Assembly (NCBI GenBank): GCA_963681505.1
Contig: OY811978.1
Span: 3,902,382 to 3,966,381, forward strand
Length of the DNA stretch: 64,000 nt
Origin: Eunapius fragilis
Lineage: Eukaryota > Porifera > Demospongiae > Spongillida > Spongillidae
Direction: 5' to 3'
The notes under the pieces are model-generated. The model ran no database searches, had not been told where the DNA came from, and saw only the letters and a list, made by a program, of their open reading frames with translations. Shown piece by piece: positions 976 through 64,000 of the stretch (its first letter is position 1; each line of letters opens with the position of its first letter). Position numbers and translations under genes: made by a program.

Positions 976-1309
976 CTGCGATTGTTAGAGGAAAAAATTA
1001 GGGCTTAGGGCAGGGTAGGGGGGGGCCGAAGGCCCGCTACGCCCTTCAACTTTTCACCCCCTCTCTGAATCCGCCCTCAAATTGCACCCATCCCTCCCAC
1101 CCTCCCTCCCGACACTCTTCATTGAAACTCACTAACCTCCACACTCTTTAATAATGCCATCTTGGCTATGGGGAGGCGCCTGCGACGCCATCTCAACCTT
1201 TCTATCCTCCATTGTTTGAGCCACCAGGGGCTGATGCCAATGGGCAGGAAGGTCTCACCTGTCTTATCAGCAATCTATCAGTCTATACTGGAACATACCC
1301 TGTACATGC
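976..1309. other. Unique sequence between two minisatellites
   Basis: There is a G-run at about 1017-1024. The only frame with protein-like composition is a 26-codon minus-strand ORF at 1132-1212, which I cannot support as an exon. No PPIP5K exon was found. Confidence 0.4.
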
Positions 1310-4300
1310 CTTGAGTGTAGGTCATGTGTGCTGGAGTGTAGGTGCATGTGCTGGAATGTAGGTACATGTGCTGGAGTGTAGGTACATGTGCTGGAGTGTA
1401 GGTACATGTGCTGGAGTGTAGGTACATGTGCTGGAGTGTAGGTACATGTGCTGGAGTGTAGGTACATGTGCTGGAGTGTAGGTACATGTGCTGGAGTGTG
1501 GGTACATGTGTGCTGGAGTGTGGGTGCATGTGCTGGAGTGTGGGTACATGTGCTGGAGTGTAGGTCATGTGTGCTGGAGTGTGGGTACACGTGCTGGAAT
1601 GTAGGTACATGTGCTGGAGTGTAGGTACATGTGCTGGAGTGTGGGTACATGTGCTGGAGTGTAGCTCATGTGTGCTGGAGTGTAGGTACATGTGCTGGAG
1701 TGTAGGTCATGTGTGCTGGAGTGTGGGTACACGTGCTGGAGTGTAGGTACGTGTGCTGGAGTGTAGCTCATGTGTGCTGGAGTGTAGGTACATGTGCTGG
1801 AGTGTAGGTACATGTGCTGGAGTGTAGGTCATGTGTGCTGGAGTGTGGGTACACGTGCTGGAGTGTGGGTACATGTGTTGGAGTGTAGGTACATGTGCTG
1901 GAGTGTAGGTACATATGCTGGAGTGTAGGTACATGTGCTGGAGTGTGGGTACATGTGCTGGAGTGTAGGTGCATGTGCTGGAGTGTAGGTACATGTGCTG
2001 GAGTGTAGGTACATGTGCTGGAGTGTGGGTACATGTGTTGGAGTGTAGGTACATGTGCTGGAGTGTAGGTACATGTGCTGGAGTGTAGGTACATGTGCTG
2101 GAGTGTGGGTACATGTGCTGGAGTGTAGGTGCATGTGCTGGAGTGTAGGTACATGTGCTGGAGTGTAGGTACATGTGCTGGAGTGTGGGTACATGTGCTG
2201 GAGTGTGGGTACATGTGCTGGAGTGTAGGTCATGTGTGCTGGAGTGTAGGTACATGTGCTGGAGTGTAGGTACATGTGCTGGAGTGTAGGTACATGTGTG
2301 CTGGAGTGTAGGTACATGTGCTGGAGTGTGGGTACATGTGCTGGAGTGTGGGTACATGTGCTGGAGTGTAGGTACATATGCTGGAGTGTAGGTACATGTG
2401 CTGGAGTGTAGGTACATGTGCTGGAGTGTAGGTACATGTGCTGGAGTGTGGGTGGGTACATGTGCTGGAGTGTAGGTACGTGTGCTGGAGTGTAGGTACA
2501 TGTGCTGGAGTGTAGGTACATGTGCTGGAGTGTGGGTACATGTGCTGGAGTGTAGGTGCATGTGCTGGAGTGTAGGTACATGTGCTGGAGTGTAGGTACA
2601 TGTGCTGGAGTGTGGGTACATGTGCTGGAGTGTGGGTACATGTGCTGGAGTGTAGGTCATGTGTGCTGGAGTGTAGGTACATGTGCTGGAGTGTAGGTAC
2701 ATGTGCTGGAGTGTGGGTACATGTGCTGGAGTGTAGGTACATGTGCTGGAGTGTAGGTGCATGTGCTGGAGTGTAGGTACATGTGCTGGAGTGTAGGTAC
2801 ATGTGCTGGAGTGTGGGTACATGTGCTGGAGTGTGGGTACATGTGCTGGAGTGTAGGTCATGTGTGCTGGAGTGTAGGTACATGTGCTGGAGTGTAGGTA
2901 CATGTGCTGGAGTGTAGGTACATGTGTGCTGGAGTGTAGGTACATGTGCTGGAGTGTAGGTACATGTGCTGGAGTGTAGGTACATATGCTGGAGTGTAGG
3001 TACATGTGCTGGAGTGTAGGTACATGTGCTGGAGTGTAGGTACATGTGCTGGAGTGTGGGTGGGTACATGTGCTGGAGTGTAGGTACGTGTGCTGGAGTG
3101 TAGGTACATGTGCTGGAGTGTAGTACATGTGCTGGAGTGTGGGTACATGTGCTGGAGTGTAGGTGCATGTGCTGGAGTGTAGGTACATGTGCTGGAGTGT
3201 AGGTACATGTGCTGGAGTGTGGGTACATGTGCTGGAGTGTGGGTACATGTGCTGGAGTGTAGGTCATGTGTGCTGGAGTGTAGGTACATGTGCTGGAGTG
3301 TAGGTACATGTGCTGGAGTGTAGGTACATGTGTGCTGGAGTGTAGGTACATGTGCTGGAGTGTGGGTACATGTGCTGGAGTGTAGGTACATGTGCTGGAG
3401 TGTGGGTACACATATGCTGGAGTGTAGGTACATGTGTGCTGGAGTGTGGGTACATGTGCTAGAGTGTGGGTACATGTGCTGGAGTGTGGGTGCATGTGCT
3501 GGAGTGTAGGTACACATGTGCTGGAATGTGGGTACATGTGTGCTGGAGTGTAGGTACATGTGCTGGAGTGGGTACATGTGCTGGAGTGTAGGTGCATGTG
3601 CTGGAGTGTAGGTACATGTGCTGGAGTGTGGGTACATGTGCTGGAGTGTGGGTGCATGTGCTGGAGTGTAGGTACATGTGCTGGAGTGTAGGTCATGTGT
3701 GCTGGAGTGTAGGTACATGTGCTGGAGTGTAGGTACATGTGCTGGAGTGTGGGTACATGTGCTGGAGTGTGGGTACATGTGCTGGAGTGTGGGTACACAT
3801 GTGCTGGAGTGTGGGTACATGTGCTGGAGTGTGGGTGCATGTGCTGGAGTGTAGGTACACATGTGCTGGAGTGTAGGTACATGTGCTGGAGTGTGGGTAC
3901 ATGTGCTGGAGTGTGGGTACATGTGTGCTGGAGTGTAGGTACATGTGCTGGAGTGTAGGTACACATGTGCTGGAGTGTAGGTACATGTGCTGGAGTGTAG
4001 GTACATGTGCTGGAGTGTGGGTACATGTGCTGGAGTGTAGGTATGTGCTGGAGTGTGGGTACATGTGCTGGAGTGTAGGTACATGTGTTGGAGTGTAGGT
4101 ACATGTGCTGGAGTGTGGGTACATGTGCTGGAGTGTAGGTGCATGTGCTGGAGTGTAGGTACATGTGCTGGAGTGTAGGTATGTGCTGGAGTGTGGGTAC
4201 ATGTTTTGGAGTGTAGGTACATGTGTTGGAGTGTAGGTACATGTGGTGGAGTGTGGGTACATGTGTTGGAGTGTAGGTACATGTGCTGGAGTGTGGGCAC

Positions 4301-4445
4301 ATGTGCTGGAGTGTGGGTACATGTGTGCTGGAGTGTAGGTACATGTGCTGGAGTGTAGGTGCATGTGCTGGAGTGTAGGTACATGTGCTGGAGTGTAGGT
4401 ACATGTGCTGGAGTGTAGGTACATGTGCTGGAGTGTGGGTGCATA
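1310..4445. repeat. 20-bp minisatellite, roughly 155 copies, 3.1 kb
   Basis: The consensus unit is GTGCTGGAGTGTAGGTACAT. Variants include GTGTGGGTACAT, GTAGGTCATGTGT, shortened units of 16-18 bp and units ending GGTGGGTACAT. Blocks of variants recur in the same order (for example near 2230-2640 and 2650-3250), which shows higher-order duplication of multi-unit segments. The long minus-strand frames read a repeated Tyr-Leu/Pro-His-Ser-Ser-Thr-Cys-Thr pattern and are not genes. Confidence 0.95.
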
Positions 4446-4854: not shown

Positions 4855-6828
4855 CACCCTCAGTAGTCGAGATGGAAGACATTGTTGATATTGATGGGAT
4901 GGTGTTTCGTAAGCCCTTTGTGGAGAAACCTGTGTCTGCCGAGGACCACAATGTTCATGTCTACTTCCCTTCCGATTGTGGAGGAGGGTCCCAGAGGCTG
5001 TTCAGAAAGGTGTGTTGGGTGTGATCATGTATTGAAGGTGTGGCCATGTATTGAAGGTGTATTGGGTGTGGTCATGTATTGAAGGTGGGTTGGGTGTGGT
5101 CATGTATTGAAGGTGTGTTGGGTGTGATCATGCATTGAAGGTGTGGTCATGTATTGAAGGGGGGTTGGGTGTGGTCATGTATCGAAGGGGGGTTGGGTGT
5201 GGTCATGCATTGAAGGTGTGGTCATGTATTGAAGGGGGGTTGGGTGTGGTCATGTATCGAAGGCATGTTGGGTGTGATCGTGTATACATGTGTGTATGTG
5301 TGTGTACAGGTAGTGTAGCGACAGGCTAGATGGGGTACACATAAGGACATGTATGTGGAGGGCATACGAGTACACAATACTACACATAAGGACATGTATG
5401 TGGAGGGCATACGAGTACACAATACTACACATAAGGACATGTATGTGGAGGGCATACGAGTACACAATACTACACATAAGGACATGTATGTGGAGGGCAT
5501 ACGAGTACACAATACTACACATAAGGACATGTATGTGGAGGGCATACAAGTACACAATACTACACATAAGGACGTGTATGTGGAGGGCATACGAGTACAC
5601 AATACTACACATAAGGACATGTATGTGGAGGGCATACGAGTACACAATACTACACATAAGGACATGTATGTGGAGGGCATACGAGTACACAATACTACAC
5701 ATAAGGACATGTATGTGGAGGGCATACGAGTACACAATACTACACATAAGGACGTGTATGTGGAGGGCATACGAGTACACAATACTACACATAAGGACAT
5801 GTATGTGGAGGGCATACGAGTACACAATACTACACATAAGCACATGTATGTGGAGGGCATACGAGTACACAATACTACACATAAGGACGTGTATGTGGAG
5901 GGCATACGAGTACACAATACTACACATAAGGACGTGTATGTGGAGGGCATACGAGTACACAATACTACACATAAGGACATGTATGTGGAGGGCATACGAG
6001 TACACAATACTACACATAAGGACATGTATGTGGAGGGCATACGAGTACACAATACTACACATAAGGACATGTATGTGGAGGGCATACAAGTACACAATAC
6101 TACACATAAGGACATGTATGTGGAGGGCATATGAGTACACAATACTACACATAAGGACATGTATGTGGAGGGCATACGAGTACACAATACTACACATAAG
6201 GACATGTATGTGGAGGGCATACAAGTACACAATACTACACATAAGGACATGTATGTGGAGGGCATACGAGTACACAATACTACACATAAGGACATGTATG
6301 TGGAGGGCATACAAGTACACAATACTACACATAAGGACGTGTATGTGGAGGGCATACGAGTACACAATACTACACATAAGGACGTGTATGTGGAGGGCAT
6401 ACGAGTACACAATACTACACATAAGGACGTGTATGTGGAGGGCATACGAGTACACAATACTACACATAAGGACATGTATGTGGAGGGCATACGAGTACAC
6501 AATACTACACATAAGGACGTGTATGTGGAGGGCATACGAGTACACAATACTACACATAAGGACATGTATGTGGAGGGCATACAAGTACACAATACTACAC
6601 ATAAGGACGTGTATGTGGAGGGCATACGAGTACATAGATTATCGATTTAGAACACTGAACAGTGAGTGAACTAGTTCTGTGATGTGACTTTGCTGATTGC
6701 TTGTGATCCTTGCTTGTCATGTGATCCTTTCTCGAGTCGTGTGATTTCACCCCTGTATCAGGCAGTGTGTCATGTGATTGCTCCACCTCCTCCTTCTGCA
6801 CCACCCCTAACCGCGTGTGTGTGCGTGT

Positions 6829-25163: not shown

Positions 25164-28100
25164 TGACCAGTGGATCATCCAAAAGCCGCAGGTGTGCAAT
25201 GTGTTCTGTTTCTAGTGCAGAAAATGTTGTTTAGTATGTTAGCAATGTTTACATATTACATATTTCTTCCTGTTGACTGATGTGGTTTGTGGGGGCTGTA
25301 AACTAATGCTTTAATACTGTGGTGTTTTATCCCTTCCCTACCCCACCCCTTTGCTCCCTGATGTGCAGCCCAACCCCCTTCACTATCCCTCCACCCCTTC
25401 ACAATCCCTCCACAATCCATCCTTTCATAATCCCTCCATGCCCCCTCCACAATCTCTCCATGACCCCTCCACTTCTCTGAAAACTGTATTTTAAAAGTAT
25501 TTGTCACTTATAGTGATTTGGAACAGACAACCTCTGTTGTTAGTACTACATGTATGTTGCCTGCTGCTGCAGTGTCCACTAGCTCCTGCTGCAGTGTCCA
25601 CTAGCTCCTGCCGCAGTGTCCACTAGCTCCTGCCGCAGTGTCCGCTAGCTCCTGCTGCAGTGTCCACTAGCTCCTGCCGCAGTGTCCACTAGCTCCTGCC
25701 GCAGTGTCCACTAGCTCCTGCTGCAGTGTCCACTAGCTCCTGCTGCAGTGTCCACTAGCTCCTGCCGCAGTGTCCACTAGCTCCTGCTGCAGTGTCCACT
25801 AGCTCCTGCCGCAGTGTCCACTAGCTCCTGCTGCAGTGTCCACTAGCTCCTGCCGCAGTGTCCACTAGCTCCTGCCGCAGTGTCCACTAGCTCCGGCTGC
25901 AGTGTCCACTAGCTCCTCCCGCAGTGTCCACTAGCTCCTGCCACAGTGTCCACTAGCTCCTGCCACAGTGTCCACTAGCTCCAGCTGCAGTGTCCACTAG
26001 CTCCTGCTGCAGTGTCCACTAGCTCCTGCCGCAGTGTCCACTAGCTCCTGCCACAGTGTCCACTAGCTCCTGCCGCAGTGTCCACTAGCTCCTGCCGCAG
26101 TGTCCACTAGCTCCTGCCACAGTGTCCACTAGCTCCTGCCGCAGTGTCCACTAGCTCCTGTCGCAGTGTCCACTAGCTCCTGCCGCAGTGTCCACTAGCT
26201 CCTGCTGCAGTGTCCACTAGCTCCGGCTGCAGTGTCCACTAGCTCCTGCCGCAGTGTCCACTAGCTCCGGCTGCAGTGTCCACTAGCTCCTCCCGCAGTG
26301 TCCACTAGCTCCTGCCGCAGTGTCCACTAGCTCCTGCCACAGTGTCCACTAGCTCCTGCCGCAGTGTCCACTAGCTCCTGCCACAGTGTCCACTAGCTCC
26401 GGCTGCAGTGTCCACTAGCTCCTGCCGCAGTGTCCACTAGCTCCTGCCGCAGTGTCCACTAGCTCCTGCCACAGTGTCCACTAGCTCCTGCCGCAGTGTC
26501 CACTAGCTCCTGCTGCAGTGCCCACTAGCTCCTGCTGCAGTGCCCACTAGCTCCTGCCGCAGTGTCCACTAGCTCCTGCTGCAGTGTCCACTAGCTCCTG
26601 CCGCAGTGTCCACTAGCTCCTGCTGCAGTGCCCACTAGCTCATATTTCTGCTTGGCTCAACCGCCTGGCAGTTCTATAGAGAGAGCACATTAGATTGGTA
26701 GCCTACATGTTCCCTTGTACATAGGTATTTTATTTCCAATTGTAACATTTAATGCAGGAGAGGGGAGGAGGTTGGTGATTGGAGTGTGTAGTGAACCCTT
26801 CTCTCCCTCCCTCTCCATATGCAGGGAGATGATCACAGCCAGGCTGGCTCCTGAGTACATCCCACGGCTACCCTCCTCTGCCCAGAGCACAGCTGTGGAC
26901 ACACCTACTCCACTGTCCACAACTGGTGGGAGCATGTACGTGTGAGATGGGCAGGGAGGGGAGGGAGGGAGGGGCTGAGGGGGAGGGTGGTTCAGCATTG
27001 GGGCGCTTGCAATGCCTTGAGCCACACATTATGTCCATGGAATGCTGTACATGGATGGTTATATGTGGTGATTGTATATGGGTGGGGGAGCCTAGGGGGA
27101 GGGGATAACCCGGGGGAGGGGATAACCCGGGGGGGGGGGGGGGGGGGGGGGGGGGCAGCTCCCTAAAGTGTGCCATTGTCATGAGAGGCTGATCGTGTCA
27201 TATTCTGGTGGACAAAAAACCCGCATCTGTTGCCTGTTGATGCTTCTGAATTTCAGGCATGCATGGTGTTTGTCTGCTGGATTATCAGGAAAAGGGTCTA
27301 CATTTAATGCATGGTTCTACACAGGTATCGCAACCATTTATTTTGCCTTGATCAGCACACTTGGAGCATGTGTACCAAATGTGACTGAGCCGATCCTCTG
27401 ACCATCCCCTCACCTCCCTCTGACCACCATCTCGTCACCTCCCTCTGACCACCATCCCCTCACCTCCCTCTGACCACCATCCCTCTGACCACCATCTCCT
27501 CACCTCCCTCTGACCACCATCCCTCTGACCACCATCCCTCACCTCCCTCTGACCACCATTCCCTCACCTCCCTCTGACCACCATCCCTCTGACCACCATC
27601 CCTCACCTCCCTCTGACCACCATCCCTCACCTCCCTCTGACCACCATTCCCTCACCTTCCTCTGACCACCATACCTCTGACCACCATCCCTCACCTCCCT
27701 CTGACCACCATTCCCTCACCTCCCTCTGACCACCATCCCTCTGACCACCACCCCTCACCTCCCTCTGACCACCATCCCCTCACCTCCCTCTGACCACTGT
27801 CCCCTCACTTCCCTCTGACCACCATCTCCTCACCTTCCTCTGACCACCATCCACTTACCTCCCTCTGACCACCATTCCCTCACCTTCCTCTGACCACCAT
27901 CCCCTCACATCCCTCTGACCACCATTCCCTCACCTCCCTCTGACCACCATCCACTCACCTCCCTCTGACCACCATTCCCTCACCTTCCTCTGACCACCAT
28001 CCACTTACCTCCCTCTGACCACCATTCCCTCACCTTCCTCTGACCACCATCCCCTCACATCCCTCTGACCACCATTCCCTCACCTCCCTCTGACCACCAT

Positions 28101-35603: not shown

Positions 35604-54192
<18,589 letters not shown>

Positions 54193-56541: not shown

Positions 56542-56551
56542 AAACTGAGCA

Positions 56552-57965
56552 ATGAACACTTCGATACAACCCGACAAAGGCATCTATCTACTTCATGCGG
56601 CATGTTATGAAGGCGACATCAACCTGGTAAGACTACTGGTCACCAAGTATGGCTGGGACGTCAATGCTCGAGACGCAGAAGGCGATACACCTTTAACGTG
56701 CGCAGGTTTAGGTGGCAGTGTGGAGTGCGTGGAGCTATTGCTTAACGAGTTTCACTGTGACATCAAAACCAAGGGCCATAATAACAGGACTATCCTTCAT
56801 AATGCGTGTATCCAGGGTCACACCTTCCTAGTGGGAGTGCTTATTACCAAGTATGGCTGTGATCTGAATACTCGGGATGCAACTGGCGATACGCCCTTAA
56901 TGTGTGCTGGTATAGGTGGTAGTGTTGTGTGTGTGAACCTATTGATTGAAGAATTTCATTGTGATATCAACACCAAGAATTATCAAGGTAGGAATATCCT
57001 TTACTGTGCATGTAACAAAGGCCACACCTCCCTGGTGAGGCTTTTGGTTACTAAGTATGACTGTGACCTCAATACTCATGATGAAGAGGGATACACACCC
57101 TTGACGTGTGCTGGTTTAGGTGGTAGTGTGGAATGTGTGGAGCAGTTGATCAATGAATTTCACTGTAACGTCAAGACCAAGGGTCCTAATGGAAGGACTA
57201 TCCTTCACAGTGCATGTAATATAGGTCACACCTCCCTTGTGAGACTGCTGGTTACCAAGTATGGCTGTGACCTCAAACCCCGCGATGAAGATGGTGATAC
57301 ACCCTTCACATGTGCTGGTTTAGGTGGTGGTGTGGAGTGTGTGGAATTATTGATCAATGAGTTTCACTGTGATGTCAATACCAAGGGCTGTTCTGGTCGG
57401 ACTATCCTTCACAGTGCATGTGTGAATGGCCAAACCTCCATGGCGAGACTGCTGGTTAAAAAGTATGGCTGTGACATCAATGCTCGTGATGCATATGGCG
57501 ATACACCCTTAATATTAGCTGGTTTTGGTGGTAGTTCTGAGTGTGTGGAGCTATTAGTTGACGAATTTCACTGCGACATCAACACCAAGAACCGTCTAGA
57601 TAAGACTATCCTTCATGCTGCATGTAACAAAGGCCATGCCCACCTGGTGAGACTGCTGGTTACCAAGTATGGCTGTGACCTCAATGCTCGAGATGCAGAG
57701 GGCAATACACCATTCCTAGTTGCCGGTTTTAGTGGTAATGTGAAGTGTGTGGAACTATTTATCAATGAATTTCATTGTGACATCAAGACCAAGAACTCTC
57801 TGGGTTTTACCATCCTACATAATGCAATTTGGACTGGCAAAATCAATGTATTAAGAGCGTTAGTTGTAAAGTATGACTGTGACCTTCAGATGTGTAATAA
57901 ACTGCTGAATGAATTTTCAATGACCAATGAAATGGTGATACAAAAGCTAAAGAAAAGAGGGAAAG
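56552..57965 (+). CDS. Ankyrin-repeat exon (13 repeats)
   Basis: One exon encodes 13 ankyrin repeats of 33-34 residues with TPL and ILH starts. They alternate between two types: one with GHTSLVRLLVTKYGCDLN, the other with GGSVECVELLINEFHCDI. The higher-order unit is therefore two repeats (68 residues, 204 bp). Without splicing the frame runs on to TGA at 58019-58021 and gives 489 residues. A GTATGC donor at 57966 in phase 1 matches the phase of the next exon. Confidence 0.88.
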
Positions 57966-60900
57966 GTATGCAGTTTAAAATTTGTTTTAATGCAATGGTT
58001 GACATATATAGCTGCAACTGATGTATAGAATTTAATGTGTCATTATTGAATTCCAGTGTCTGTTTGAAAAGGTATTATTATTATTATTATTTAATTTCTA
58101 AATGGCCTCTTAGATATTTGTTGCCCAGGACAACACAATTTGTAATGTTGTAATATTATTTGTTTACCACATAAGCAGACTTAGGAAGTTCTGAAAATGT
58201 GTATTTTCAGTGTTATTGTGTTTCATAACTCTGCTGACTGCAAGGTGATAACCATATGCATGGTAATGCAGTTCTGTGTGTCATGACCACTATTGAGGCA
58301 TCATGAGCCCTTTAATTTCTGTTCCTCCCTTGCACTTTTCTTTTAATCATCTCTAGGTTTGGTTGTAAATTGATAGCATCTGATCCAACAATCCTCGAGG
58401 TTGTAGTTACACTGGCACTATTTTCTTTTAAAATGTATTAAATTGCTGTAGTGTGTTCTTTGATGATATGTTGTAAAACAGAATGTCACACCCCACCCAC
58501 CCACATATTCTGAATTATGCATTGTTGTTGATGTTTCTTTGTGTAACAACAGCCAAACAGCCATAGGTGACAAGAATTCTACGAGAGTTCCACACGATAC
58601 ACTGACATGCACAATGTATACATATATATCCCATACACACACTCTCTCTTTGTTCAGATGCTATTAGTTTGACAGATAAAAGGTTTTTTTAAAAGTGTTA
58701 TATGCACTGAAATAGAATATATTCATACCTTTTCACTGCAGAGTAGTAAACTATGGATGTACGCCTGGTTGTGATTAACTTATATACAACAGCAATGTGT
58801 TATGTATGTACCTATCTGTATTTAATGAATGGCAATATTCTTTTACAGTAAAAATGAAGTACTTTGAGTTGTCAGACGCAACCAAAGCTGGTATGTATTA
58901 TGCATGTGTTGTCTGCTTATACTGCTACAAGTATATTGAAGGAAAGGGAAGGAAATTCATAGCTGGTGCAGGTTTATTTTAAGTTCAACTTAATTTTAAT
59001 TAAACGGTTGAAGTATGAGTTATTCTGCAGCTGGGAAGATATGTATTCATTTTTCTCCAGGACTGGAAGGAGCTGACAGCATTTCCCACATTGAACCATG
59101 GTATGATGTTGGATTTTACCTTGGGGTGAATATGTCCCACCTGGAGGACCTGAAGGGTCTGCCTTCAGGTCAGATGAGCAGGATCATAAGGGGCTGGCTA
59201 GGTGGGGATAGATACATGTTTGACTACTTCATGGAGCCATGTTGGAAAACATTGGTGAAGGCCATTGCCCATCCTGCTGGAGGGAACAATATCTCTCTGG
59301 CTGAAGAAATAGCATTATCTCATCTTGCTCCTGCAGATGAAAGGTTCATTGGTATGTTGTGTTTCTGTTGTGTGGGTTACTAAAATAGTTGTGATCAGGC
59401 AGTGAATGGTATGTTTATTACTTCGCTGAATATTGTAATGTAGTGATACCTGTGTTTCTCACTGCTGTCTTTCAGCACTATCATTGTTTTCTATAGTAGG
59501 TGTTACGTCAGTGTACATAGCTTTAAAGGCGAAGTATATAGGTAATTGTCTACACTACACTTTTCGTAGGAATGCAGCACTCCAGTACTGTTTGTGAAGA
59601 GCTCTTAGCTTCTTGTGACAAGTGGTACGACCTTGGAGTGTTGTTACAAGTTAACAGACAGACTTTAAATGGTATAAAGTCACGCCATACTCCTTCAGCG
59701 CGTTTGAACCAAGTTGTGGTGGAGTGGTTAAAGCTGAACTCCAGTCTGAGCAGTCTCCCCACCTGGAGCCACCTGATCAAAGCCATTGCACAGATCAATA
59801 TGGAGAGAGAGGCCAAAGCATTGCAGCAGTCCCATCCTATGCCAAGACACAGTACCAGTGGTATGGAGAGCATAACATTACGGGGCAAGAGGGAAATGGT
59901 AGCTGGAGGTAGCATTGATCTAACAAATTATTGCTATTTCTATTGATACAGCTATTTATAAAAAGGCTGATATACTAATTGTATTTTTGGTATCAGAAAT
60001 TTTAAAAGACAACCGGTGGTGGTTATGCACCCAGACATAAATAAACATCATTGAATGGTTATGCAACGGCTTGAACTGAACTAGTCAATGTTGGTTTTTC
60101 TAGTACAACAGTTAGTATTAAATGTTTTGATGAATACTAACTAGCATTTAAAAGTGGAGACTCAATGATATTGTGAGGCGTAGCAATTGATCAGAAATAT
60201 TTACACGCATCTCTCTGTGATTATCTCTTGATGTCCACTATTACAGGAAATACTGTGAGCAATGCATCATTAGGTAGGTTCTTTTTGAAATCTATTTGAA
60301 TCAAGTATGAAATTGCCAATATACTTCTCCCTAATAGGTGAGCAGTCACTCCTTGAGGTGGTTGATACCATATCAGAGCTGAAGGACCAATGGCAGGCCC
60401 TTGGCCTGGCTCTGAAGCTGGACCCATCAGTGGTGAAGGAGATATCTGGCACCACCTCCAAGGACTGTCTGACAAAGGTGGTTGCCCTGTGGCTGAGGTG
60501 TGATAAGGTTACACCTTCATGGCACAGTCTGGTGGACTGCCTCCGTACTGGTCTGTGGGGAGACAACTCATCCATTGTCAGCAGAATTATTAATAAACAG
60601 CCCAAGGCTACTGCTGTGTCTGGTAAGTGTTGTAGAAATAGAAATATATTTATTGTAGTAGTCAGGAACTATCTAGAGACTTCATTGTACCCTGGCAGTG
60701 ACATACCATACCAACACAGGGGCGGATGTTTGAAGGGGGCGTGGCAGAAAAGAGGGGGTTTCAATGATTTATTCACAAATATCAATGCAGATTGCCTAAT
60801 TTCCTGGTATGAAAATGTTATCAAAGGGCTGAGAGGGGGAGTTTAAACCCCCAACCCCCCCCCCCCCCCCCAGATCCGCTACTGCCAGCCCTTGCCAGTA

Positions 60901-63309
60901 CTGCTACTGCCAGCCCTTCGAGGCTCTTCTTGTTTCCACAATCATGTTTTATATAAATGTTCAAATTGCATTGATTGCCAAACTGAATCCACCCACACTC
61001 TCCTCAAATTACATAATCTGTATTTTTTAACAATACAATCTTTCATTTACATAGTAGTGTCATCTGAAGAACAGAAAATGCAGGCCAAGAAGCTGTATAA
61101 TGAGGCCATGGAGAAGGGGTATGCTGAATGTTCAACCATCAGATGTCTTATCCATGGATCAGCTGGGGTGGGCAAAACACATGTGAAACATCTCCTCCTC
61201 AAAATGCCTCCTCCTAAGCTTAGAACCAGCACAGGAATCGCTGATAACCCTGTTCGTGCTGTGACAGTGTCTGCACTGGGTGTTTCCAAGCAAGACGAGG
61301 ATGACTGGCATGTCCTTGATGGGGACTATGACCTCATGCATGCAGTGAGCCAGATGATCAAAGGATATGTGGAACCTCTTCCCAAGAAGGATGATCCCCC
61401 TATGGTACAGCCTACTAGCCATTCAAGTCACCCAGGACCTTCAGCAAATGGATATGCGGAGGATGGCAGTATGTTATTTAGTTCATTCCCCAGCAACCAC
61501 ACACATGATGTAATAGTACCGCCAGATGAACATCACATGTATAGCCACCAACCGTTAATGCTCGGACTTCTGCTCCCGATCCCATTAAACCAGGCAATGC
61601 CTCAGACCAACTGTCTGTGGAAGAGCACTTTATCAATATTATTAACCAGCTTACAGGTGGGTAATGAAATTGAGTATATAATCAGATGTAATCAGTCGTT
61701 AATTGCTTGTTGCATTGTTCATATACAGGTAAGAAGGAACATCTGAAAATGAAGTGGATCCAGTTGATAGACAGTGGTGGCCAACCACAGTTTCACCATC
61801 TCCTTCCATTCTTCGTTGGAAACCTGTCTGCAGTGCTGTTTGTCCTCAAGCTATCAGAAAAGTTTGATCATGCACGTAAAATAGAGTGTTTTGGAAGTGA
61901 CGGCGAGAGTATTGGAGGGACTTATGAGACATGTTATTCACACAAGGAAGTAATGGAGCGTTCACTGAAGGCATTCCAGTCCAACCCAACTGGTGCAGGT
62001 CCAACTGGTACAGGTGGACCTCTTGTTATTGTGATAGGTACTCATGAGGACCATGAGCATATATGTGATGAAACAAGGGAAGTGAAGAACAAGAAAGTTA
62101 ACAAATGTTTGCAGTTAAATAAAAAGTGCACACCATTGTATGTGGGGCAAGACATGACAAAGGTGATCTTTGGTGTCAACTGTAAGACACCTGATACGAA
62201 AGACAAAAAAGTTGCCGAAGACTTGCGTAAAGAGATATCCGTACTAACTCCAAAACCCAGGAAGATACCCATTGCCTGGTTTGGTTTGGAGGTGATACTT
62301 CATGACCTGGCTCAGAAGAAGAAGAGAGAGGCACTTAGTGTTTTGGAGTGCAAGCAAGCAGCTGAGCGTGTTCAACTGAAGGATGATGCATTCACTGCTG
62401 CTCTTAGTCAATTTGTGGGATGTAATATCCTTTTGTATTATCCAGATGTCCTTCCAGGTGTGGTATTCTGTAACCCCCAAGTTCTTCTTAGGATCATTAC
62501 TGAGCTGGTTCAGCACCGTTATAAATTAATGGAACGGCCAGATCTGAATACGCCAATCAGAGGTGATTGGAAAAGGTTCAATGATTATGCATACATAACT
62601 CAGAAATTACTAGATGAATTTCCTGGACACTACTATGATGGTGTGTTCTCATCTTCTGACCTCATCAAGCTGTTCACCAGTCACTCAATAATGGTTCCAG
62701 TGGGCAATGGAGAATACTTGATGCCTGCTCTTCTTCCTGAGCTATGCCTCAGAGGCTGTCAGTCTGGCCTTCATTCAGGTGACCCCCTCCCATCAGGTGA
62801 TCTCCTTAGCCTTCTATTAGATGACCCCCTCCTGATACGGTACAAGGGAGGATGTTTTCCAAATGGAGTCTTTTGCTTCCTTGTGGCCTTCCTCCTCAAT
62901 CATGCAAAATGGACTGTGTGCACAAAAGATGGGAAGCCCAAATGTCTGTATAGCAATTCAGTCGCCTTTTCAGCCTCAGATTTCCCAGCAACAGTTACCA
63001 TCATTGACAGCCTTTCGAATTTTGCAGTTCACGTTGTTCTGAGCCATGGTTGTCCATCTCTCCACTCCTCTGTGCTATCCGATGTCCGCCGAGGGATCAT
63101 GACTGCATGTAAACACCTTGGCTACCAGTGTGCAGAGGGAGACCTCATAGATGCTGTATACTGCAGGCATGATAACTGTGGAAGGGATGCAAAACACCAC
63201 GCTGACATCAGAGTAACAAATTATGGCTCTTGGGCAACATGCTGTAAAGATGAAGGTCGAACGATGCCTTGTCCTTCTGCAGTTTCCATGTCCTGCTCCA
63301 AAGTCCTTG
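56552..63309 (+). CDS. Ankyrin-repeat / triple Death-like domain / Roc-COR GTPase protein (possibly incomplete at 3' end)
   Basis: Nine exons are all joined in phase 1: 56552-57965, 58849-58890, 59061-59351, 59570-59908, 60247-60273, 60338-60622, 61055-61468, 61594-61656, 61729-63309. They give about 1,485 residues. Order: 13 ankyrin repeats (about 5-450), three Death-like domains (about 486-582, 583-695, 705-799), a Roc GTPase with P-loop GSAGVGKT (about 834-841), DSGGQPQF and the Roc-type G4 THED, a COR module (about 1145-1350) and a Cys/His-rich end. The architecture resembles receptor-adaptor or STAND-like signalling proteins expanded in sponges and cnidarians; no ligand or pathway can be named. 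Fusion of the ankyrin exon to the rest is inferred from phase. The ankyrin ORF could instead stop at 58021 as a separate gene. The last exon either ends at TAG (63324-63326) or splices at GTATGT (63310). Confidence 0.7.
57966..58848. other. Intron (inferred) between the ankyrin and Death-domain exons
   Basis: It contains no recognised exon. An ATT microsatellite is at 58075-58092. If the ankyrin gene is separate, this holds its 3' UTR and the next promoter. Confidence 0.45.
58849..60622 (+). CDS. Death-like domain exons (three domains, two micro-exons)
   Basis: Exon 58849-58890 (42 bp) encodes KMKYFELSDATKA. Exon 59061-59351 encodes a domain with PWYDVGFYLGVNMSHLEDL and CWKTLVKAIAH. Exon 59570-59908 has KWYDLGVLLQVNRQTLNGI and TWSHLIKAIAQ. 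Exon 60247-60273 is a 27-bp micro-exon. Exon 60338-60622 has QWQALGLALKLDPSVVKEI and SWHSLVDCLRTGLWGDN. The W..LG..L.......I......W..L...L pattern is that of Death-fold domains in sponge and cnidarian receptor proteins. Every exon is symmetric (1-1), so any can be skipped without frameshift. Confidence 0.78.
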
Positions 63310-63326
63310 GTATGTACTTATTATAG
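61055..63326 (+). CDS. Roc-like GTPase and COR exons
   Basis: Exon 61055-61468 holds the P-loop segment IHGSAGVGKTHVKHLLLK. Exon 61594-61656 is a 63-bp linker containing EEHFINIINQLT. The intron between them (61469-61593, GTATGT...CCAG) was placed because the uninterrupted frame loses protein character there; its acceptor is the least certain. Exon 61729-63309 holds WIQLIDSGGQPQFHHLLPFF, the THED motif in VIGTHEDHEH, then the COR-like PIAWFGLEVILHDLAQ, GCNILLYYPDVLPGVVF and YLMPALLPEL. It ends in a Cys/His region (CRHDNCGRDAKHH, GSWATCCKD). DxGGQ and THxD are the Roc forms of the GTPase motifs. Confidence 0.82.
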
Positions 63327-63745: not shown

Positions 63746-64000
63746 GGTACCAAATTTGAAGCTATTTGATTGCTTCTATCTGAAGATGTGGCCGTTTGGA
63801 ATCCTATGGAGTATCGGACCTTGTAACGTTGGTACACCGCATCAGTAAAACACCGAAATGTATTTTCACATATAGCAATGGTGTGGTATGTTGTTTTAAA
63901 AATAGGAACCCTATAGCATTAATATTTCGGAAGATATTCAATCCACAAAGTGAAAAATATATATGTATAATTAACATTTTGTAGTCTAGTTGTGTGCTAT
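63746..64000. other. No gene recognised at the right edge
   Basis: A 62-codon frame (63796-63984) resembles no family. This could be 3' UTR or intron of the Roc-COR gene. Confidence 0.4.

Follow-up and report, generated by a model that had tools for sequence, protein, structure and literature searches.

What kind of protein is encoded by a sponge locus in which an ankyrin array precedes death domains and a Ras-like GTPase, and is it encoded by one gene? We examined this in the window G000:C8:3902382-3966381, a stretch of 64,000 nucleotides from a 219 Mb assembly of 24 contigs. The first-pass annotation had described 13 ankyrin repeats, three Death-like domains and a Roc-COR GTPase, joined in a single gene reminiscent of Roco and DAPK proteins and ending at 63326. 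On balance, our analysis favors one intracellular protein of ~1,567 residues, which would work as a sensor, switch and adaptor of the Roco type.

Gene model and integrity of the window copy

The gene model comprises ten exons on the + strand, nine inside the window and one past its end, linked by GT-AG joins. The predicted joined protein has 1,567 residues and carries 13 ankyrin repeats, three death domains, the Roc-COR GTPase and a fourth death domain, in that order. All nine introns are in phase 1 with GT-AG borders, some of them resting on small or disputed pieces. Exon 1 (56552..57965) holds the start codon, with an in-frame stop upstream at 56546, the ankyrin repeats and a phase-1 donor, G|gtatgc, at a position matched in two paralogues, L043 and L045. 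The first three death domains lie at 59061..59351, 59570..59860 (where an alternative donor at 59908 is likewise frame-preserving) and 60338..60622. Two possible small exons of phase 1-1, both uncertain, have canonical sites and can be skipped without loss of frame, namely 58849..58890 (42 nt) and 60247..60273 (27 nt); the former is uncertain because no counterpart turned up when the corresponding parts of L042, L043 and L045 were searched by motif. The Roc start exon with the P-loop (61055..61468) is followed by an exon with the end of the Roc linker (61594..61656, phase 1 on both sides) and by a large exon (61729..63309) with the remaining Roc motifs, a region like COR-A and COR-B and a donor, G|gtatgt. 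The gene end at 63326 was rejected, as the stop at 63324-63326 sits in the intron (63310..64352, the window ending at 64000) that opens after donor 63309|gtatgt. The model runs to 64648, its last exon (64353-64648, or L009:735-1030) lying beyond the window and encoding death domain 4 and the stop codon.

The 13 repeats of ~34 aa are encoded in one exon (residues 10-471), and the annotated number was borne out by the repeat count and by a Pfam Ank_2 match of 8e-114 on the nine-exon product. Their frame has 490 codons, and the longest frame in 200 shuffled sequences has 154. The array also matches ANK_LRRK2 (36.7 bits, cut-off 27.5), as do the longer arrays of siblings, which we take as a probable sign of general ankyrin likeness. 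By a motif count that gives 12 repeats for the window copy, one too few, L043 has at least 28 and L045 at least 25, both arrays reaching the edge of the sequence compared. Variability peaks at positions 6, 9, 10 and 33 in one repeat type and at 6, 32 and 33 in the other, and variable ankyrin positions such as these tend to face ligands. Between repeats of one array, pN/pS is 0.43-0.82.

The first Roc exon is a single open exon in the four closest relatives (L042, L043, L044 and L045, which are 78-83% identical to the window copy in the large GTPase exon). In the window copy, a variable linker of this exon shows a gap of 10 bases, and the exon has 3 extra bases compared with most siblings, so that its frame is shifted. 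An unbroken exon 61055-61656 was rejected, as it leaves the shifted frame. The 125-nt stretch that contains the gap and is coding in the siblings (61469..61593) is bordered by a gtatgt donor and a cag acceptor, and its removal as a GT-AG intron preserves the frame. A product without COR is possible for the window copy. The copy would then be partly decayed, the frame change truncating it after the P-loop and leaving a protein of ankyrin repeats and three death domains that lacks COR and the last death domain. The ten-base gap versus four siblings with one open exon each is consistent with such decay, as is the number of private codons in the COR exon, the highest of the five copies (47, of which 24 are nonsynonymous and 23 synonymous, against totals of 20, 17, 25 and 27 in the siblings). 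The exon that follows the gap, however, is under purifying selection: dN/dS is 0.28-0.39 among the five close copies, and the 0.28-0.36 of pairs with the window copy resembles the 0.32-0.39 of the siblings among themselves. Since the donor and acceptor would also permit a frame-keeping splice and the other exons of the window copy are open, we regard decay as rather unlikely. The corresponding dN/dS values are 0.34-0.57 for death domain 1, 0.30-0.71 for death domain 2, 0.42-1.20 for death domain 3, where changes are few, and 0.41-0.64 for the P-loop exon in pairs without L042.

The GTPase region

The Roc motifs claimed in the first-pass annotation are present and in order, with GSAGVGKT at residue 818 (G1), DSGGQ at 957 (G3) and GTHED at 1046 (G4), a numbering that presumes the splice 61468-61594. 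Domain profiles, one of the checks that the annotation had proposed, gave a divided answer: Ank_2 and death domain 4 pass their cut-offs, while the window protein reaches only 14.0 bits against a Pfam Roc cut-off of 27 and has no Pfam COR match. Such a cut-off marks the reach of the profile search and is not in itself a property of the protein. Among 25 family sequences, Pfam Roc was found at E<=1 in six (best 7.9e-4) and Pfam COR in none at that threshold. COR-A matched at E<=0.01 in 23 of 82 copies of the GTPase exon, one of them over the cut-off.

Structure and profile comparisons point to Roco proteins. Foldseek placed Roco/LRRK chains at all of ranks 1-8 for a model of a relative's whole Roc-COR region and at ranks 1-3 for a model of the window exon. 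The proposed check by structure prediction came out in favor of Roco in its rankings but not in its quality, the two models being of low confidence (mean pLDDT 50.6 and 44.8) and the Roco matches having low TM-scores (0.16-0.23, relative to the query). Aligned by profile with six Roco proteins from this genome, the region was collinear across Roc and COR with an E of 2.3e-5, which is the value of a single comparison, and a second profile alignment for COR gave 1.5e-4. In the PDB, single-sequence searches of the GTPase region returned nothing meaningful, and a profile of the family alignment had Rab-like protein 3 first (E 0.17) and no Roco protein among the best 10 rows. From the structure rankings, the profile alignments and the relatives' COR-A matches, COR lies directly C-terminal to Roc. 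These resemblances in fold and profile support a divergent Roc-COR, predicted beneath the Pfam Roc and COR cut-offs; the annotated COR is backed in this way by fold and relatives, not by a Pfam match of its own.

Relatives and death domains in the same genome

Searching the genome with the large GTPase exon gave at least 82 places at E<=0.001, including the window's own and hence at least 81 relatives, a lower bound because 82 of 171 candidates were scored. This is the count of similar genes that the annotation had suggested; some of the relatives lie beside other sensor modules, an arrangement resembling that of innate immune receptors. The places are partly in arrays, 44 of the 82 being on C2 and 16 on C1. 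Each of the 29 best-scoring relatives (L013 to L041) has a P-loop exon no more than 1.5 kb upstream. Flanks were compared for the four close paralogues and for four distant relatives (L046-L049). Kelch repeats stand upstream on the same strand in L047, L048 and L049, and a Neuralized domain (L046:5920-6267, 6.6e-9) stands upstream of the Roc-COR relative, also on the same strand; L031 has Kelch in its flank. From their position, these neighbors would form one gene with the GTPase exon. Upstream of L041 there is a MINT_RAM7 match of 1.4e-13, below the cut-off of that profile. In one scan each of collections of prokaryotes and viruses no relative was found, none of 96 and 27 pattern matches, respectively, being confirmed.

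Of 357 Pfam Roc candidates 150 were scored, and all 82 copies, the window's counted, start more than 3 kb away from these matches. This suggests that counting such proteins with the Pfam Roc profile gives too low a number. COR-A matches were seen at 121 places genome-wide, many on C1 and C2, with 50 of the 121 rows exceeding the curated cut-off, among them two that belong to one frame.

The three annotated Death-like domains stand as three exons with tblastn support, but the count was incomplete, a fourth domain lying past the window. In tblastn, death domains 1 and 2 match each other, and domains 1, 2 and 3 match domain 4 (2.7e-5, 4.9e-4 and 1.3e-6) at 25-29% identity, the best E in the whole comparison being 4.5e-7. 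Domain 4 passes the Pfam Death cut-off narrowly (23.2 bits against 22.6; E 7.9e-5); the Pfam scan found no match for domains 1 and 3, and domain 2 alone of the first three was detected, below threshold (0.0074). A death-domain profile compared with the PDB had FADD first (E 0.061).

The exon of domain 1 recurs in three siblings at 83-86% identity and that of domain 3 at five other places in the genome at 84-88%. Exons like that of domain 1 were found at 20 further places (63-76% identity, mostly on C5 and C19) and at weaker ones, and exons like that of domain 4 gave 99 matches, many on C2. Among the 43 of these that were listed, 3 (the window's own counted) have a GTPase-exon place within 6 kb and 15 have a COR-A match within 12 kb. 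Since exons of both types occur at such other places, death-domain exons are common to other families as well. The C-terminal death domain comes as two types. The window copy and L042 share the first, which Pfam Death scores at 0.15 in L042; L043, L044 and L045 carry the second (2.5e-12, 4.3e-14 and 2.5e-10). The first death domain of L042 has no Pfam match. In other relatives, the C-terminal domain is over the cut-off in L027, below it in L021, L029 and L031, and visible by eye only in L046, where Pfam gave none. A sixth set of three death-domain exons was seen at G000:C22:1853561-1855307, with no close GTPase exon beside it among the matches listed.

We tentatively propose that the genome may hold a combinatorial receptor repertoire parallel to the NLRs, built on a divergent Roc-COR at 82 or more places that a Pfam Roc search misses. 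Ankyrin arrays of differing length, Kelch propellers and Neuralized domains would be interchangeable as its sensors, as would its death domains, and phase-1 exon shuffling together with tandem duplication would have spread them. If true, early animals would have a further, GTPase-based class of candidate recognition receptors, and the naturally occurring variants in this large family could be used to study how binding is turned into assembly by Roc-COR.

Proposed working and comparison with known systems

In the sensor-switch-adaptor model, the ankyrin array would bind a protein ligand and Roc-COR would act as a nucleotide-controlled dimerization switch driven by GTP cycling. Once the switch opens, the death domains may recruit death-domain adaptors into a signaling assembly, with an immune or cell-death output as a possible result. 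Human Roco proteins have been studied largely through LRRK2. The excerpted text of PMC6337361 counts four of them and offers a precedent in DAPK1, whose Roc domain controls an output. Like the Roco proteins LRRK1/2, MFHAS1 and bacterial Roco, the window protein has a Ras-like GTPase that bears DxGGQ and THxD, is immediately followed by COR and has a repeat-type module ahead of it. It differs from them in falling below the Pfam cut-offs, in a long insert between G1 and G3, in its four death domains and in repeats of the ankyrin and not the leucine-rich type, and no kinase was found; the Pfam scan of the predicted protein gave no match to the LRR, kinase and WD40 domains of LRRK.

A close counterpart in its modules is DAPK1, which in excerpts of PMC6337361 has a kinase, RocCOR, a death domain and a link to the cytoskeleton. 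DAPK1 unites ankyrin repeats, a Roc-COR unit and a death domain at its C-terminus (PMC12365538 for the ankyrin repeats, excerpts of PMC6337361 for the rest), as does the window protein, which has three extra death domains between ankyrin and Roc. The window protein might be a cell-death or cytoskeletal regulator of the DAPK kind with no immune role. Against this, the Pfam scan of the predicted protein found no CaM-dependent or other kinase domain, and the + strand between 54346 and 56551 has no frame of 90 aa or more (frames of at least 80 aa being listed), though smaller exons are possible there. The family, moreover, is expanded in arrays and its sensor modules differ, features more typical of recognition families. 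We consider a DAPK-like regulator unlikely.

The sensor-switch-adaptor reading has further parallels in animals. Trichoplax CARD/death Rocos, actiniarian NG3 and an Aplysia MyD88-like protein with ROCO combine Roc-COR with death-fold domains (PMC11378527, PMC5094078 and PMC9334734, in excerpt), and in these excerpts none is named with an ankyrin array and three tandem death domains. Roc-COR joined to death-fold domains in animals is therefore already known, and the variant with an ankyrin array and tandem death domains appears to be new; among the matches listed from the open-licence literature, none describes this module order or the expansion of the GTPase-exon family. Sponges have large death-domain and NACHT families (literature including portions of PMC8195603, PMC6208332 and PMC12909245). 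Sponge NLRs, an expanded family of NACHT-LRR proteins of which some carry DEATH or CARD (per excerpts of PMC12909245), share with the window protein sensor repeats, a nucleotide switch, a death-fold adaptor and expansion. The window GTPase, in contrast, is of the Roc type, and scanning the predicted protein with Pfam gave neither NACHT nor leucine-rich repeats. The 357 Amphimedon TRADD-N proteins join death-like domains to variable parts such as ankyrin repeats (excerpted in PMC8195603). Unlike them, the window protein has Roc-COR, and TRADD-N had no Pfam match in the predicted protein, a profile that divergent copies may escape.

In two of the paralogues, L043 and L045 (contig C22), one strand carries ankyrin repeats, three death domains, the P-loop exon, the GTPase-COR exon and a C-terminal death domain. 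This equal module order supports the predicted joins and upholds the annotated single gene near Roco and DAPK. The locus could instead be two neighboring genes, with an ankyrin gene beside a separate death-domain/Roc-COR gene, as might be read from the 42-nt exon without counterpart in siblings and from L042, which has the other modules but where no ankyrin exon was found within 4.1 kb upstream of the first death domain, a 26-residue antisense match being all that was seen; the L044 stretch is too short to judge its upstream modules. With the ankyrin exon adjoining the three death-domain exons in L043 and L045, its donor at the matching place, two genes are very improbable. Weak AAA_16 matches, seen in L046 (0.011) and in 11 of the 25 family sequences (0.063 at best), might assign the P-loop to an AAA or STAND NTPase instead of Roc, but this is hardly credible given the order of P-loop, DSGGQ and GTHED, the Roco-first structure rankings and the relatives with COR-A matches.

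Elsewhere in the window, 39008-45148 and 45349-51480 form a direct duplication, 98.8% identical, around a gap of 200 N (45149-45348), which is possibly an assembly duplication; the neighboring gene in this region presumably resembles an inositol-pyrophosphate kinase. Long arrays of minisatellite repeats lie at 1302-4444, 5336-6634 and 25561-26641, and some of them are open in several frames. Outside it, L049:3839-7498 and L010:6265-7432 contain open frames that by eye resemble parts of retrotransposon gag, reverse transcriptase and integrase.
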